Shown: positions 13,172 through 21,617 of the stretch, in pieces
Numbering within the stretch: the first letter of the stretch is position 1
Layout of the letters: every line of letters starts with the position of its first letter
Source of the DNA: Bacillota bacterium
Lineage (GTDB): Bacteria; Bacillota; Clostridia; Clostridiales; Clostridiaceae
DNA: 56,919 nucleotides
Assembly (NCBI GenBank): GCA_030705885.1
Contig: JAUZPN010000002.1
Coordinates: 1 to 56,919 of the forward strand
Direction: 5' to 3'
The notes under the pieces: generated by a model
Seen by the model: only the letters and a program-made list of their open reading frames with translations
Database searches by the model: none
Told to the model about the DNA's origin: nothing
Position numbers and translations under genes: made by a program

Positions 13172-13873
13172 ATGTGGGTGATGATTGTGAATAATATATT
13201 GATAATAGACGATGATACAGATATAAGGGAAATGCTTGAAAATTATTTTTCAAGAGAAGGCTACAGCACTTTTTCTGCTTGCAATGGTGAAGAAGGGTTA
13301 ATTCTAGCAAAAAGTGCTGATCCTTCAGTAGTTCTTCTAGATGTGATGATGCCTAAGATGGATGGGTACACTATGCTGTCCAAGCTCAGGGAATTCAGCA
13401 ATGTTCCTGTTATTCTGCTTACAGCCAAGGGAGAACAGCTTGATAAGATTAAAGGCTTCACAAAAGGCTGCGATGACTATATAGTTAAGCCTTTTGATTT
13501 TACAGAGTTATCTCTAAGAATTTCAGCAATACTAAGAAGGACCGGAAAATCAAATGTAAATGAGGAAAGCACTATATATGTAAAAGATTTAGAGATAGAT
13601 CCATTGGAGCACAGGGTGCAGAAGTGCGGAGAAGAAATAATACTCACTCCTAAAGAATTTGATATATTATATACTCTGGCTTCAAACAAAGGAAGAGTTT
13701 ATTCCACAAGGACGCTGTATGAACTTATATGGAAGGACACATTTTTAGAGAATGATAATAGCGTGATAACTCACATAAGAAATTTAAGAGATAAGCTTGG
13801 TGACAGAGTAAAGGAAGGCAGATATATAAAAACTATATGGGGAATGGGGTATAAAATTGAAAAGGATTGTTAG
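13172..13873 (+). CDS. OmpR-family response regulator
   Basis: DNA-binding response regulator of about 230 residues. The receiver has NNILIIDDDTD, acceptor Asp in VVLLDVMMPKMDG, and LLTAKG and YIVKPFD. A winged-helix Trans_reg_C domain follows (about 130-230; LTPKEFDILYTLASN and HIRNLRDKLGD). Three starts are possible (13172 ATG, 13181 ATG, 13187 GTG). Homologous proteins usually begin at NNILIIDDD, and GGGTGA sits just before the GTG, so the last may be the true one. Its end overlaps the kinase start by 17 nt. It likely controls the adjacent ABC transporter. Confidence 0.88.
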   Translation: MWVMIVNNILIIDDDTDIREMLENYFSREGYSTFSACNGEEGLILAKSADPSVVLLDVMMPKMDGYTMLSKLREFSNVPVILLTAKGEQLDKIKGFTKGCDDYIVKPFDFTELSLRISAILRRTGKSNVNEESTIYVKDLEIDPLEHRVQKCGEEIILTPKEFDILYTLASNKGRVYSTRTLYELIWKDTFLENDNSVITHIRNLRDKLGDRVKEGRYIKTIWGMGYKIEKDC

Positions 13874-15230
13874 TCTCAGAGCTGAATTAGTTATAATAGC
13901 TGCATTAACAATAGTTTTTTCATTTTTCGTAGGAATGATAGCAAAAGGTTTTGGTGTAGCAAGTTACAGCAAAAGCCCTGATTATAGAATGAATTATATT
14001 TATTCTGGTGGTGTAGCACCTGTTGAAAAAAAACTAAAAAAAGAGAACATGTCAGATCCCATAGAACTTCAAAAATTTTTAGATAAAGAAGGTTCTTTTG
14101 AAATTGGATATAACTTGTGTATCACAGATAGTGAAGGCAATGTAATTGCTGCTAGCAATAAAGATGTAAAGAAAATTGACAGAGATAAAATTCAGGCTGG
14201 CGGCAGGCATTATGCAGTATCACCTGATAACAATGAAGGAAGTTTTAAAGTAGATGGCTGTGATTATCTTAAAGAAGGTTATTATTTGTATTATTCATAT
14301 CTTGGCTATGGTAAAGACGATCAATTAGCTGCATTATGGGCTTTAGTTGGTTTTGTAATCTTATTTCTTATTTTAATATGGAGAAGAGTATCCTATATTT
14401 CCAGGATGAAATCTGCAGTAAATAACATTGCAGAAGGGAATCTAAGCTACAGAGTCCCACTGAAATATAGGGATGAGCTCAGAGAATTGGCAGAAGGAAT
14501 TAATTATATGGCATCTGAACTTGAAAATGAAGAGAAAAAAAGAAATGAGTTTTTAACTAATATATCTCATGATCTAAGGACTCCTCTTACCACAATTTTA
14601 GGTTATATAGATATGATAAAGAAGGAAAAATATGATTCTAAAGAAGAAATGGCTAAATATATAAATGTTATGGAAAGGAAGGGAGTATTCTTAAGAAAGA
14701 TGCTGGAGGACTTTTTTCAGTATTCAAAACTTGCATCTAAAGACATAGAACTTAATTTTAGCAGAATAGAGTTAAATGAGGTGGGAAGACAGGTGTTTGA
14801 AGATGAATGCACAGCCTTTGAAGAAAAAAGGTTAAAACTCAGTCTTAAGCTGTCACAAGAGCCTATTTATACTGAAGTTGATCAGGAACTTTTCATAAGA
14901 GCCATAAGTAATCTTATAAGCAATGCATTAAAATATTCCAAGGCAGATACTACAGTTATGATAAATGTTTCAGGGCAAAAGCTTAATAATTTAAGCTATG
15001 GAGTTTTTTCTATAAGCAATGTTCCGAAAGAGCCTATATCCAAAGAAGAACTTATAAGTTTTTTTGAAAGGCTGTATAAAAAAGATAAAGCAAGACATGA
15101 GGAAGGAAGCGGTTTAGGTTTATCAATTGTAAAAGATATTGTTGAGCTTCATGGAGGAAATGTTAAAGGAACAATTGAAGGGGAAAGATTAATAATTAAA
15201 ATTAATGTAAAAATAAATTATACACAATGA
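13857..15230 (+). CDS. Sensor histidine kinase with HAMP domain
   Basis: Membrane kinase of 457 residues. TM1 lies at about 7-29 and TM2 at about 160-180 (LWALVGFVILFLILIW). Between them is an extracytoplasmic sensing region of about 130 residues. HAMP comes next, then the HisKA motif NISHDLRTPLTTILGYID (phosphoacceptor His near 239) and a HATPase with NLISNALKYS and GSGLGLSIVKDIVELHGG. Partner of the regulator at 13172-13873. The sensor region is longer than in BceS-type intramembrane kinases, so it may detect a ligand directly. Confidence 0.87.
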   Translation: MKRIVSLRAELVIIAALTIVFSFFVGMIAKGFGVASYSKSPDYRMNYIYSGGVAPVEKKLKKENMSDPIELQKFLDKEGSFEIGYNLCITDSEGNVIAASNKDVKKIDRDKIQAGGRHYAVSPDNNEGSFKVDGCDYLKEGYYLYYSYLGYGKDDQLAALWALVGFVILFLILIWRRVSYISRMKSAVNNIAEGNLSYRVPLKYRDELRELAEGINYMASELENEEKKRNEFLTNISHDLRTPLTTILGYIDMIKKEKYDSKEEMAKYINVMERKGVFLRKMLEDFFQYSKLASKDIELNFSRIELNEVGRQVFEDECTAFEEKRLKLSLKLSQEPIYTEVDQELFIRAISNLISNALKYSKADTTVMINVSGQKLNNLSYGVFSISNVPKEPISKEELISFFERLYKKDKARHEEGSGLGLSIVKDIVELHGGNVKGTIEGERLIIKINVKINYTQ

Positions 15231-17393: not shown

Positions 17394-18728
17394 ATGCCAA
17401 CAGGAAGTTTAAAAGTTCAGGCTTTTGAAGGAGATACGTATAAACCTATAGAAAATGCTAAAGTTACTATATTAGGTGTGAGCAATAAAAATGTTACACA
17501 AAATGCTGCAACAGATTCTTCAGGTGTTACAAGGGAAATTGAGCTTGATGCTCCGCCAATGCAATATTCAGAAGTACCAAGTAAAAACATTCCATATAGT
17601 CTTTATGATGTTATGATTGAAGCTCCAGGATATAATAATCTTGTTATAAGGGGATCACAAATTTATCCTGAACGTGTTGCACTTCAGGATTGCAGACTTC
17701 AAAAGACTGGAATGAGACAGGGGCAAATGCAGGAAATTATTGTGCCCGCCAATACTTTGGTAGGTGATTTTCCACCAAAGATTCCGGAAAGCCCAATTAA
17801 AATACCTGAGCAGGAAGGAAGCGGTTTTGTTGTCTTAGATCAAGCAGTAGTACCTGAATTTATAGTTGTGCATGCAGGGGCACCAAACAATACTTCAGCA
17901 GCAAATTATACTATAAGATATAAAGATTATATTAAAAATGTTGCATCTAGTGAAATATTTTCAACTTGGCCTGAAAGTACTATAAGGGCAAATGTGTATT
18001 GCATTAATTCCTTTACACTAAATAGAGTATTTACAGAATGGTATAGAAATAAGGGTAAAAATTTCACAGTTACTAATTCTACAGCTTATGACCAGGCGTT
18101 TAGCTATGGAAGGACTATATATGCCAATATAAGCAGAATTGTAGATGAATTATTTACAACATATGTTAAAAGACCAGGCGTAAAGCAGCCACTATTAACA
18201 CAATACTGTGATGGGATAAATGTACAGTGTCCTGGATGGCTTACACAATGGGGCAGTAAGTATTTAGGAGATAAGGGATACGTTCCATATAATATACTTA
18301 CACATTTTTATGGTACTAATTTAAGTTTATCTACAGCTCCAAAGGTATCAGGTATTCCTTCATCATATCCAGGATATTCACTTGGTATAGGGTCAAGCGG
18401 ACTGCCAGTAAGAAATATACAGACATATTTAAATGTTATCTCAAATAACTATCCGGCTATACCTAAATTGAGAGTAGATGGTTTGTATGGAACAAGTACA
18501 AAAAATGCAGTAGCTGCTTTTCAAAGAATTTTTAATCTTTATCCTACTGGTGTGGTAAATTACCCTACTTGGTATAGAATTTCTGATATTTATACAGCAG
18601 TTAGTAAAATAGGGGAATCTAGATACAGAAATAATTATAGAAAAAATATATTTATTCCACCAGTGCCCTTCAATTATCGTGAAGAAAATATACCAAGTGT
18701 ATCTTATTATGAAGATGAAAATGATTAA
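17394..18728 (+). CDS. sleC: SleC-like spore cortex-lytic protein
   Basis: Product of 444 residues, close to the length of clostridial SleC. The N-terminal region (MPTGSLKVQAFEGDTYKPIE) is the SleC pro-domain type. The central region (about 160-320) contains a SpoIID-like lytic transglycosylase text with INSFTLNRVFTEWYRNKGK. The C-terminal region (about 335-405) is a peptidoglycan-binding repeat (LPVRNIQTYLNVI, DGLYGTSTKNAVAAFQ). SleC is stored as a zymogen in the spore and degrades cortex during germination after cleavage by Csp proteases. No signal peptide is expected in the mother-cell-made form. No csp genes are in the window. Clostridia often carry several paralogues, so the exact orthologue is uncertain. 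Confidence 0.8.
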   Translation: MPTGSLKVQAFEGDTYKPIENAKVTILGVSNKNVTQNAATDSSGVTREIELDAPPMQYSEVPSKNIPYSLYDVMIEAPGYNNLVIRGSQIYPERVALQDCRLQKTGMRQGQMQEIIVPANTLVGDFPPKIPESPIKIPEQEGSGFVVLDQAVVPEFIVVHAGAPNNTSAANYTIRYKDYIKNVASSEIFSTWPESTIRANVYCINSFTLNRVFTEWYRNKGKNFTVTNSTAYDQAFSYGRTIYANISRIVDELFTTYVKRPGVKQPLLTQYCDGINVQCPGWLTQWGSKYLGDKGYVPYNILTHFYGTNLSLSTAPKVSGIPSSYPGYSLGIGSSGLPVRNIQTYLNVISNNYPAIPKLRVDGLYGTSTKNAVAAFQRIFNLYPTGVVNYPTWYRISDIYTAVSKIGESRYRNNYRKNIFIPPVPFNYREENIPSVSYYEDEND

Positions 18729-18766
18729 TAACAGTATCTTATGGGAATTTTTTTGATGGTTATTAT

Positions 18767-18802
18767 AAAAATACTCTCCTCGGCAATGAGGTGAGTATTT
18801 TT
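18767..18802. terminator. Bidirectional terminator between sleC and the hydrogenase genes
   Basis: Arms AAAAATACTCTCCTC and GAGGTGAGTATTTTT form a 15-bp stem with one mismatch around a 6-nt loop. There is a T-run on either strand. It lies 38 nt past the sleC stop and about 100 nt past the convergent hydrogenase large-subunit stop, so it can serve both. Confidence 0.75.
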
Positions 18803-18900
18803 AATGATTTTCTTCCTATTGTAAGAAAATCTTAATTTATAGATTCTCTTAAATACAAAGAAAATTATCTATATTTGAACTTTGATATCTGAATTTTAAA

Positions 18901-20313
18901 CTAATGGGTGGCACAGGATATGCAGGGATCAAAGGAACGTATTATTCTTCCAAGTTCAGGATTACCTTCACTGTTTCCAAGTTTTGTACCAATCAATGCT
19001 TTTTCAGCAGGTCCATGAATACCTTTTTCATCTATTGGTGATAGATTCCAACCTGAAGGAGTAATAATATCATAATATTTAATGACTTTATTTTCAATCT
19101 GAACCCAGTGACCTAGTGTGCCTCGTATTGTATCTGTAAGTCCAACTCCAAAAGCACTGTTTGGCATCTCATAAATCCTTTGATTATTGTTCTTTATCTC
19201 AATTCTATTGACTATATTATCCATTATTTTAATGATTTTTTGAGTCTCAAGTACTCTTGCAGTATTTCTATCCATACATGAGCTTCCTTTAGTATACTCT
19301 CCAGTTATCATCATTCTTGCCAGAGGTCCGCCTTCCATAGGAAGTCCTTTATATCTTGCAGCTTTCACAAAAGAATATGCATCTGTTTTTTTGAGGTCAA
19401 CTTCTTCAATTTCTTCTATTCCAGGTTTTTCTATAGTTTCATCACTTAAGTACCAGGAATATCGTATGTTTTCATTAATATTATTGATATCCAGCAGTTG
19501 TCTTTTCCCATTTATCATTACACCAGGTTTTACATAACTTATTTCTGGTTCTTTATAGTTATTAAAGAGACCATAACTCATGTAGTTTGAATAAGATTCT
19601 CCCTTTTCAAAGTAGTCTTGGTAGTACTTAGATATGATATTCATATCTTCAAGCATATACATTTCTATAAAGTCTTTGATTTGAGTTATTATTGATTTTA
19701 CCTTTTCAAGTTTATAAGCATCTATATTTACTGTTATTCCTCCAAGAAAAATGCCGTGATTGTGGGGAGCCTTTCCACCTAATACAGCCAGTCCCTCATG
19801 AGCTAATCTGCTGTATTGTATGCTTTTAATATAATGGTCAGATAATCTTTTATTTAATTCTTCTGGCAATCTATAATCAGTATATTGCTGAGGTGAAACA
19901 GGATTTATATCTGGCAGCTTTACATAATCAGGCAATGTTAAAAAATAGAACTGTCTTAGATGGTTTTGCATTATTTCAAAGCCATGAATTAAATCTCGTA
20001 TATACTGGTCATTTATATCTATAGTTATTTTAAGTGCGTTTTCAAGTGCCAGGGAGGAGGCTATTCCATGAGAGGTTGAGCAGATCCCGCATATTCTTTC
20101 AGTAAAATATATAGCGTCTAGAGGAGATCTTCCTTTTAACATTTTTTCAAAACCTCTGAATAATAATCCGCTTGTTTTAGCATTTGTCACTATGTTATTT
20201 TCTACTTCAGTGCTTATATCCAAAAATCCGCTTATCCTAGTAACAGGATCAATTTTTATATTTATTTTTATCCCACCCTTATTATTAATATCTAACAAAT
20301 GGTTCCATTCCAT
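18901..20313 (-). CDS. [NiFe] hydrogenase large subunit, lacking the C-terminal maturation extension
   Basis: Catalytic subunit for reversible H2 oxidation or production. The N-terminal Ni ligand motif RICGIC is near residue 73 and the C-terminal motif DPCISCATH forms the last nine residues. The stop codon directly follows the His that is normally the cleavage point for the maturation endopeptidase, so no processing should be needed. The conserved N-terminus (INIKIDPVTRISG) is preceded by an AAGGGTGGG site but no ATG, GTG or TTG at suitable spacing. The nearest canonical in-frame starts are TTG 20298 and ATG 20313, inside the small-subunit gene; an ATA start near 20260 is possible. No hyp genes are in the window. 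Confidence 0.88.
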   Translation of the reverse strand: MEWNHLLDINNKGGIKINIKIDPVTRISGFLDISTEVENNIVTNAKTSGLLFRGFEKMLKGRSPLDAIYFTERICGICSTSHGIASSLALENALKITIDINDQYIRDLIHGFEIMQNHLRQFYFLTLPDYVKLPDINPVSPQQYTDYRLPEELNKRLSDHYIKSIQYSRLAHEGLAVLGGKAPHNHGIFLGGITVNIDAYKLEKVKSIITQIKDFIEMYMLEDMNIISKYYQDYFEKGESYSNYMSYGLFNNYKEPEISYVKPGVMINGKRQLLDINNINENIRYSWYLSDETIEKPGIEEIEEVDLKKTDAYSFVKAARYKGLPMEGGPLARMMITGEYTKGSSCMDRNTARVLETQKIIKIMDNIVNRIEIKNNNQRIYEMPNSAFGVGLTDTIRGTLGHWVQIENKVIKYYDIITPSGWNLSPIDEKGIHGPAEKALIGTKLGNSEGNPELGRIIRSFDPCISCATH

Positions 20314-21157
20314 CTGGAAAATGCGGCTGAGCACAGCCTATACATGGTGAATTATCTTGCACCGGCCAGTTTACATAACCATTCCATTTTCGTCTAGGAC
20401 AGTCAGTTTTGGTTACAGGACCTCTGCAGCCAATTTTAAACATACAACCTTCATCCCCAACTTTTTTTGCAAACTGTTTCTTGTCGAAATAACCTCTTCG
20501 TGTGCAATTATCGTGTATAGTAACACTATAAAATAATAGAGGTCTTCCGTCTTCATCAAGTTCAGGCATGCCAAATCCAACTAAATGGGCTATCGTCCCA
20601 ATTACCCAGTCAGGATGGCTGGGGCATCCGGGAGCCCGTATAACCTCTCTATTTAAAACTTCTTTTGCACTTTTACTTTCTGAAGGATTAGGTTTTGCAG
20701 CAGAAATTCCTCCATAAGAAGCACAGGTTCCGACAGCAATAACGTACTTGGCTTTTTCACCAGCCAGCTTTACTGCATCCAGAGATGTTATAGGTTTTCC
20801 TTTATAATTTGCTATTATATTGTAAAGTCCATTTTCTTTAGTAGATATTGCACCATCTACTAAAAGAATAAATTCTCCATTTAATGTATCAAGAAACTGT
20901 TCAAAAGCTTTTTCACCTTCAGTACCCATTAATGTATTGTTAAATTTTAAGTTTATGAGCTGCGTTAAAATATAGAAAATGCCAGGATTTTCACCATTTA
21001 TGAAAGATATTATATTTCCTGAACAACCTGTAGCTTCAAGCCATATAGCATCTATTTTTTTTGCTTTGTTTTCGCGCAGCAATGTCAATGTTTCATCAGT
21101 AATTATTTCGGATATAGATTTTTTACTAGCATTTAAGGGACAATCTTTATTATTCAT
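20285..21157 (-). CDS. [NiFe] hydrogenase small subunit (soluble type)
   Basis: Electron-transfer subunit of 290 residues with iron-sulfur cluster motifs. EATGCSGN holds the proximal cysteines. GTCASYGG, APGCPSHPDW, TIHDNCTRRG (His ligand of the distal cluster), CMFKIGCRGP and SPCIGCAQPHFPD follow. There is no twin-arginine leader and no C-terminal membrane anchor, so the enzyme is cytoplasmic. The ATG at 21157 has GAAGGGG upstream; a longer frame begins with TTG at 21190. It overlaps the large-subunit frame and lies 16 nt after the cytochrome b5-like gene. The layout resembles the mbhS/mbhL-type uptake hydrogenase genes of some solventogenic clostridia. Confidence 0.88.
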   Translation of the reverse strand: MNNKDCPLNASKKSISEIITDETLTLLRENKAKKIDAIWLEATGCSGNIISFINGENPGIFYILTQLINLKFNNTLMGTEGEKAFEQFLDTLNGEFILLVDGAISTKENGLYNIIANYKGKPITSLDAVKLAGEKAKYVIAVGTCASYGGISAAKPNPSESKSAKEVLNREVIRAPGCPSHPDWVIGTIAHLVGFGMPELDEDGRPLLFYSVTIHDNCTRRGYFDKKQFAKKVGDEGCMFKIGCRGPVTKTDCPRRKWNGYVNWPVQDNSPCIGCAQPHFPDGMEPFVRY

Positions 21158-21173
21158 TATATATAAACCCCTT

Positions 21174-21617
21174 CTACTTAATTGTTCCAACTTTAGGAAG
21201 GTTAGATAAAATAGAAATCATTCCATGGCATTTATTAAATTCAGCACTTAAATCTTTTCCGGCTATTAGTCCAAAGTGACTTGCTCCTCCCCAGGTCGCT
21301 TCATTGCTCACATCATAAACTACTCCATTTACTGCTACATAAGCAGGTTTACCACCAGTGCCATTAAAATTAGAAAGTTCACTAATAGTGAATTCCGTAG
21401 TTTGCCTACTTTTAGTTTTTATAATATCTTCTTGAAAGTATCTATATAATTCATCTGTAATTTTTATTGTATGATTAATTTGTCTGAATAAATGAACTTC
21501 AAGATATTGTCTTTTGTATGGGCAGAATGCAGATGCAATAGCATTCTTTAAGTGTATAATTTCTAATTGCGTTTTTTCTAGTTCATCAAACTTTTGAGCA
21601 ATATCAAAACTATCCAT
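21174..21617 (-). CDS. Cytochrome b5-like heme/steroid-binding domain protein
   Basis: Soluble protein of 147 residues. The first half (about 1-70) is helical and charged. The second half (about 76-147) is a Cyt-b5-like domain: FTISELSNFNGTGGKPAYVA, then VNGVVYDVSNEATW and LIAGKDLSAEFNKCHG. The classical HPGG motif is missing. Possible axial ligands are the His in GASHFG and in KCHG. It is first in the hydrogenase operon, 16 nt before the small subunit, so it may act as electron carrier or assembly partner. Whether heme is bound cannot be told from sequence. Confidence 0.75.
   Translation of the reverse strand: MDSFDIAQKFDELEKTQLEIIHLKNAIASAFCPYKRQYLEVHLFRQINHTIKITDELYRYFQEDIIKTKSRQTTEFTISELSNFNGTGGKPAYVAVNGVVYDVSNEATWGGASHFGLIAGKDLSAEFNKCHGMISILSNLPKVGTIK

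Follow-up and report, generated by a model that had tools for sequence, protein, structure and literature searches.

A group-1-type [NiFe] hydrogenase encoded without a C-terminal extension, in a Bacillota clade with replaced proton-relay and proximal-cluster residues

The large subunit of a [NiFe] hydrogenase encoded in a draft Clostridiaceae genome ends at its mature histidine, and the maturation protease gene that usually follows this subunit in relatives is missing from the operon. The window analysed here is a stretch of 56,919 nucleotides (contig JAUZPN010000002.1 of assembly GCA_030705885.1). With moderate confidence, we favour its product being a cytoplasmic, two-subunit enzyme of a Bacillota group-1-type clade, matured by the Hyp proteins without a protease, having a b5/MAPR-like protein as its probable partner and probably oxidising H2. 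More tentatively, we propose that a widespread Bacillota [NiFe] clade, in which the proton-relay Glu (E28) and one proximal-cluster Cys are replaced, may use a different proton and electron route or perform another chemistry, one of its lineages having dispensed with both extension and protease.

The three genes form one tight operon on the minus strand, led by the gene for the b5-like protein (21174..21617) and continuing with the small subunit (20288..21157) and the large subunit (18901..20334). The longest large-subunit ORF is 477 aa with an uncertain start, and matches Pfam PF00374 (E=1.9e-102); the small subunit counts 290 aa from a likely ATG at 21157, has its stop codon at 20285, and matches both Oxidored_q6 and NiFe_hyd_SSU_C (PF14720). 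Searches of Pfam, NCBIfam and PDB place the enzyme among the [NiFe] hydrogenases of group-1 type, and the nearest solved structures for both subunits are Desulfovibrio [NiFeSe]/[NiFe] group 1 enzymes (5jsu, 4kl8, 1e3d). A Tat signal on the small subunit is typical of group 1 uptake enzymes. Here the small subunit lacks both an RR motif and a hydrophobic anchor at its C-terminus, which reads ...DGMEPFVRY; these features suggest a soluble, cytoplasmic enzyme. Clostridial homologues have likewise been described as devoid of Tat signal (PMC9431212). The anatomy given in the initial annotation (DPCISCATH followed by a stop, a small subunit free of Tat signal and anchor, a b5-like gene at the head of the operon) was confirmed, and its description of the enzyme as soluble was supported. 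PF00374 had no second match in the same genome, and a search of plasmids for relatives returned only matches of about 30% identity, none of them a close named relative.

The large subunit terminates in ...SFDPCISCATH followed immediately by TAG, the L2 motif DPCISCATH lying at 18901..18930 (minus strand). In relatives, 4-23 residues (mostly 13-16) follow the equivalent His, and among 104 distinct large subunits that lack the canonical Glu, that of the window is alone in having zero. C. necator HoxC, our control for a naturally tail-less enzyme, likewise ends at its His. A published list of naturally tail-less enzymes comprises groups 2b, 2d, 4c, 4e and 4g, and does not mention group 1 (PMC7294309).

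A HycI-type protease gene is usually found directly after the large subunit in relatives, often overlapping it. In the window, the interval of 172 bases (18729..18900) between the large subunit and a convergent gene contains no protease gene: the protease has been lost from the operon. The convergent gene (17394-18728, plus strand) encodes a peptidoglycan-binding domain with weak SleB similarity, and is probably spore-related and unrelated to the hydrogenase. Elsewhere in the source genome (a draft of 249 contigs, 78% complete), no HycI protease was detected with either Pfam PF01750 or a clade profile, A3, built from the family's own proteases. As a positive control, A3 recovered the protease in 5/5 relatives, including the sister genome G025 and also G037, where the gene lies away from the operon. 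Since the genome is only 78% complete, absence of the protease from the whole of it is likely rather than proven. A hypC-D-E-A-B cluster is located on another contig (L065), with HypF elsewhere, so that hypABCDEF are all represented. The view that the enzyme should be able to dispense with its maturation protease, which a genome devoid of hyp genes would have refuted, is thus upheld and reinforced by the hyp genes found outside the window and by two protease profiles, one of them positively controlled. Downstream of hypCDEAB on the same contig (L065:9265-13256, C228) are MbhD-, NuoK/MnhC- and MnhD-like membrane genes of the Mrp/Mbh type, which have no hydrogenase catalytic subunit in their vicinity.

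Phylogenetic analysis places the enzyme close to relatives with graded tails: 15 aa in L196, 10 aa in L147, 5 aa in L146 and none in the window. The window sequence is sister to L146 (pair support 98), and the set of these four sequences has an SH-aLRT support of 95. L146 ends in IVRTQ and L196 in IAGNNQEPIRIEILV, each with an adjacent protease gene; L147 ends in IIGKYDKCIN and has its protease elsewhere, about 2.4 Mb away from the operon (G037, L147/L148). HoxC and a regulatory hydrogenase (RH)-like outgroup form a separate branch with 100% support, the window being nested elsewhere. Because tails of 5, 10 and 15 residues occur in its three nearest kin, the combined absence of extension and protease is best read, at the level of sequence, as a natural joint loss; and because the window falls outside the RH branch and its small subunit contains PF14720, unlike group 4, this would be a new loss, derived within a group-1-type clade. 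In a separate lineage (L150-L152, from G073, G075 and G086) the tail is independently short (VTIRR/VTLRR), and a divergent protease gene still adjoins. The clade extends over Clostridiaceae, Bacillaceae, Paenibacillaceae, Anaerotignum, Anaerosolibacter and one Calditrichales genome, and appears to include the C. acetobutylicum pSOL1 locus (L014, MbhS/MbhL) and a C. ljungdahlii locus (L218). Some Clostridiaceae genomes (L035-L041, L090) have a second, canonical group-1 enzyme that contains the Glu and has its own HycI; the small subunit examined for this second enzyme, in L090, carries Tat signals.

Comparison of large-subunit residues with E. coli HyaB and C. necator HoxG/HoxC, together with the small-subunit alignment, brings out two apparently unusual features that the initial annotation had missed: the replacement of E28 by Ser and the loss of the second proximal-cluster Cys. 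At the HyaB E28 position, the window has Ser (TRISGF, 20230..20232, minus strand), as do 64/66 core members, with Asn, His or Met in others, versus Glu in 8/8 canonical sequences that cover the site. This residue, Ser11, is invariant in all 25 sequences of alignment A1. The neighbour of E28, D118, is Asn across the window and the clade, and P508 is Thr or Ile. The second proximal-cluster ligand (C20 of mature HyaA) is Asn, Asp or Glu clade-wide, and Asn in the window (GCSGN, 21014..21016, minus strand); the remaining proximal, medial and distal cluster ligands are retained in the core clade. R509, D574 and the four NiFe cysteines (RICGIC and DPCISC) are invariant in all aligned members, and clade-specific invariants include an Arg at HyaB V121 (R103, three residues from D118) and a His at HyaB N231 (H169). 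FrhG-type enzymes have Asp at the same proximal-cluster position. So do Tat-bearing relatives from Desulfosporosinus, Tepidanaerobacter and an archaeon (L084, L085, L077, L079, L113). No report of a Glu or Cys replacement in such enzymes was found in the open literature searched.

The first gene of the operon encodes a protein with a helical N-terminal half and a C-terminal cytochrome-b5/MAPR-like domain, which scores 37.9 bits against Pfam Cyt-b5 (cut-off 23.7). A structural model searched with Foldseek gives the C-terminal half a b5 fold, with archaeal cytochrome-b5-domain proteins (6nzx, 6vz6) as nearest neighbours and PGRMC1 more distant; phmmer identity to these archaeal proteins is about 40% over 75 residues. 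In alignment A2, all 15 members share H114 and C130-H131, the two His being putative axial heme ligands, and the HPGG motif is absent. The gene, often found away from the operon, occurs in 23/25 hydrogenase-bearing versus 2/11 hydrogenase-less genomes, a distribution which makes it a probable partner of the hydrogenase. A cytochrome b5 gene near the hydrogenase has been noted in only three acetogens (PMC9431212), and the papers searched held nothing on point about b5/MAPR proteins beside clostridial hydrogenases. Ferrochelatase was detected in only 1/118 relatives and not in the enzyme's own genome, and no strong match to AhbD, of the alternative heme route, was seen in that genome (G000), in its sister G025, or in G006, G033 or G050; heme, if bound, would therefore probably be scavenged in those genomes. 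A subset of relatives does have strong AhbD-like matches, in a locus of paired AhbC/AhbD-like radical SAM genes, all below the curated cut-off, which suggests siroheme-dependent heme synthesis in some Clostridiaceae relatives only. Of the 'cytochrome b5-like companion' first proposed, the fold and, by co-occurrence, the partnership hold up; heme binding is unproven, and a heme-free role is possible.

In the mechanism we favour, HypA-F, whose genes are all present, would supply the NiFe(CN)2CO site, and the large subunit, translated with its mature His already at the end, would join the small subunit without proteolytic release. Comparison with relatives indicates that the extension shortened and then vanished in this lineage, and that the operon protease was lost along with it. 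H2 oxidation is probable, judging from the expression of MbhSL in C. acetobutylicum, whose locus appears to belong to the clade: mbhS/mbhL are expressed through stationary phase (PMC2530871), and more highly in a strain with lower H2 formation (PMC3044671). The hupCBA genes of C. saccharoperbutylacetonicum have also been reported to encode an H2-uptake hydrogenase (PMC7701477). The literature searched contained no purified clade member and no biochemistry of any. For catalysis, protons would have to move independently of E28, by a route for which R103 and H169 are candidates, and the proximal cluster would either have a ligand other than Cys or take a [3Fe-4S] form.

Other explanations can be set against this mechanism, two of which bear on whether the gene is intact. 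The genome is a draft, and one wrong base could create the TAG and conceal a normal extension. We scored peptides past the stop against 80 real extensions, which score 36-47, the 95th percentile for shuffled DNA being 11.2. The peptide obtained by reading through the TAG (FKIQISKFKYR) scored 5.0 and that of the +1 frame (SLKFRYQSSNIDNFLCI) 8.4; as both lie within the range of shuffled DNA, no downstream frame offers an extension-like peptide, and a frame-shifted hidden extension was rejected. Nor could one miscalled base account for the missing protease gene next door. Faulty sequencing or assembly, a concern already raised in the initial annotation, is thus extremely improbable. The gene could instead be beginning to decay, a stop mutation having taken the tail, the protease having been lost and the ATG having become ATA, with the enzyme made poorly or not at all. 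Two processing features have indeed gone simultaneously, and where relatives have their ATG the alignment shows ATA (20271), with odd, poor ribosome-binding spacing; such a non-canonical start could entail weak expression. However, a TTG upstream (20298) could act as start and, like an ATG at 20313, would give a longer N-terminus. Of the 84 alignment columns at which no more than one of 50 members deviates, none shows a residue unique to the window; its end branch (0.20) is no longer in any marked way than its sister's (0.19); and every gene of the operon, like the hyp genes, is open. We regard decay as rather unlikely.

The remaining alternatives concern what the enzyme does. A tail-less, soluble hydrogenase with altered active-site and cluster ligands, which could make it slow, might be an H2 sensor that signals through a kinase, like the group 2b regulatory hydrogenases. 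The sensor option of the initial annotation did not withstand comparison: HoxC and its RH-like companion sit on their own fully supported branch with Glu28 kept, HoxB keeps the proximal Cys, and most relatives of the window enzyme have both tail and protease. The operon also lacks a histidine kinase; a gene for one, at 13857-15230, stands three genes off and on the opposite strand, and kinase-like ORFs appear in only 3/152 homologous stretches. Sensing is in our opinion very unlikely. A somewhat stronger case, although still an unlikely one, can be made for the absence of H2 turnover, the NiFe site having been turned to a different two-electron reaction or to storage or sensing, with the b5-like protein as specific partner. 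E28 is generally accepted as critical in proton transfer (PMC8514002), so its absence argues against ordinary H2 turnover, and D118, P508 and one proximal Cys are replaced clade-wide as well, with R103 and H169 as new invariants. Against repurposing stand the invariance of the four NiFe cysteines, R509 and D574, the retention of hyp genes in the same genome, and the mbhS/mbhL expression that tracks lower H2 formation (PMC3044671).

If the enzymes of the clade oxidise H2, the near-essential status of the proton-relay Glu and of the proximal Cys would be challenged; if not, the common annotation 'uptake hydrogenase' is a misreading of these enzymes. The need of the C-terminal extension for NiFe cofactor insertion is itself debated, since deleting it by genetic means has had opposite outcomes (PMC7294309): without it, R. 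eutropha SH and E. coli Hyd-2 yield cofactor-deficient, inactive protein, which speaks against protease-free maturation here, whereas the genetically pre-cleaved R. eutropha MBH (HoxG-proc), a precedent in its favour, retains full activity, although less of it is produced. A natural group-1-type loss of tail and protease, with close kin at 5, 10 and 15 residues, makes this question directly testable by tail swaps.

Among known systems, the closest are the clostridial 'group 1a' uptake enzymes of acetogens (PMC9431212) and C. acetobutylicum MbhS/MbhL, which share the subunits, the lack of Tat signal, the single-enzyme pattern and an often nearby cytochrome b5 gene. The apparent C. ljungdahlii and pSOL1 loci (L218 and L014) have the TRISG and CSGN motifs of the window, but retain C-terminal extensions (LVSDKYEPVDVQVIV, LVSDKYSPIDIKVIV) and, in L218, an adjoining protease gene, both of which the window lacks. 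The Desulfovibrio [NiFeSe]/[NiFe] group 1 enzymes have the same four NiFe cysteines and the same distal and medial cluster ligands; they are periplasmic, whereas the window enzyme is predicted to be cytoplasmic, with Cys instead of Sec, Ser for E28 and Asn for the proximal Cys. Its medial site has Pro rather than Cys, unlike NiFeSe, and a [NiFeSe] identity was rejected, L2 being DPCISC with no in-frame TGA. CooH and other group 4 enzymes combine membrane subunits with a short, NuoB-like small subunit devoid of PF14720. An origin from group 4 was rejected, as PF14720 is present and the operon has no membrane subunits. The regulatory hydrogenases (group 2b, HoxBC) resemble the window enzyme in being Hyp-matured and in having the mature His as the final residue of the large subunit, and differ in their tree position, in keeping E28 and the proximal Cys, and in their kinase linkage; the early comparison with RH and CooH therefore survives for the missing tail and fails for kinship. 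The b5-like protein shares its fold and a conserved loop His with the MAPR-like archaeal proteins 6nzx and 6vz6, but differs in its fusion with a helical N-terminal half and in its link with a hydrogenase, its heme being putative. Finally, HoxG-proc (PMC7294309) is likewise a group 1 large subunit whose chain stops at the mature His and which dispenses with the protease: what was engineered there is apparently natural here.
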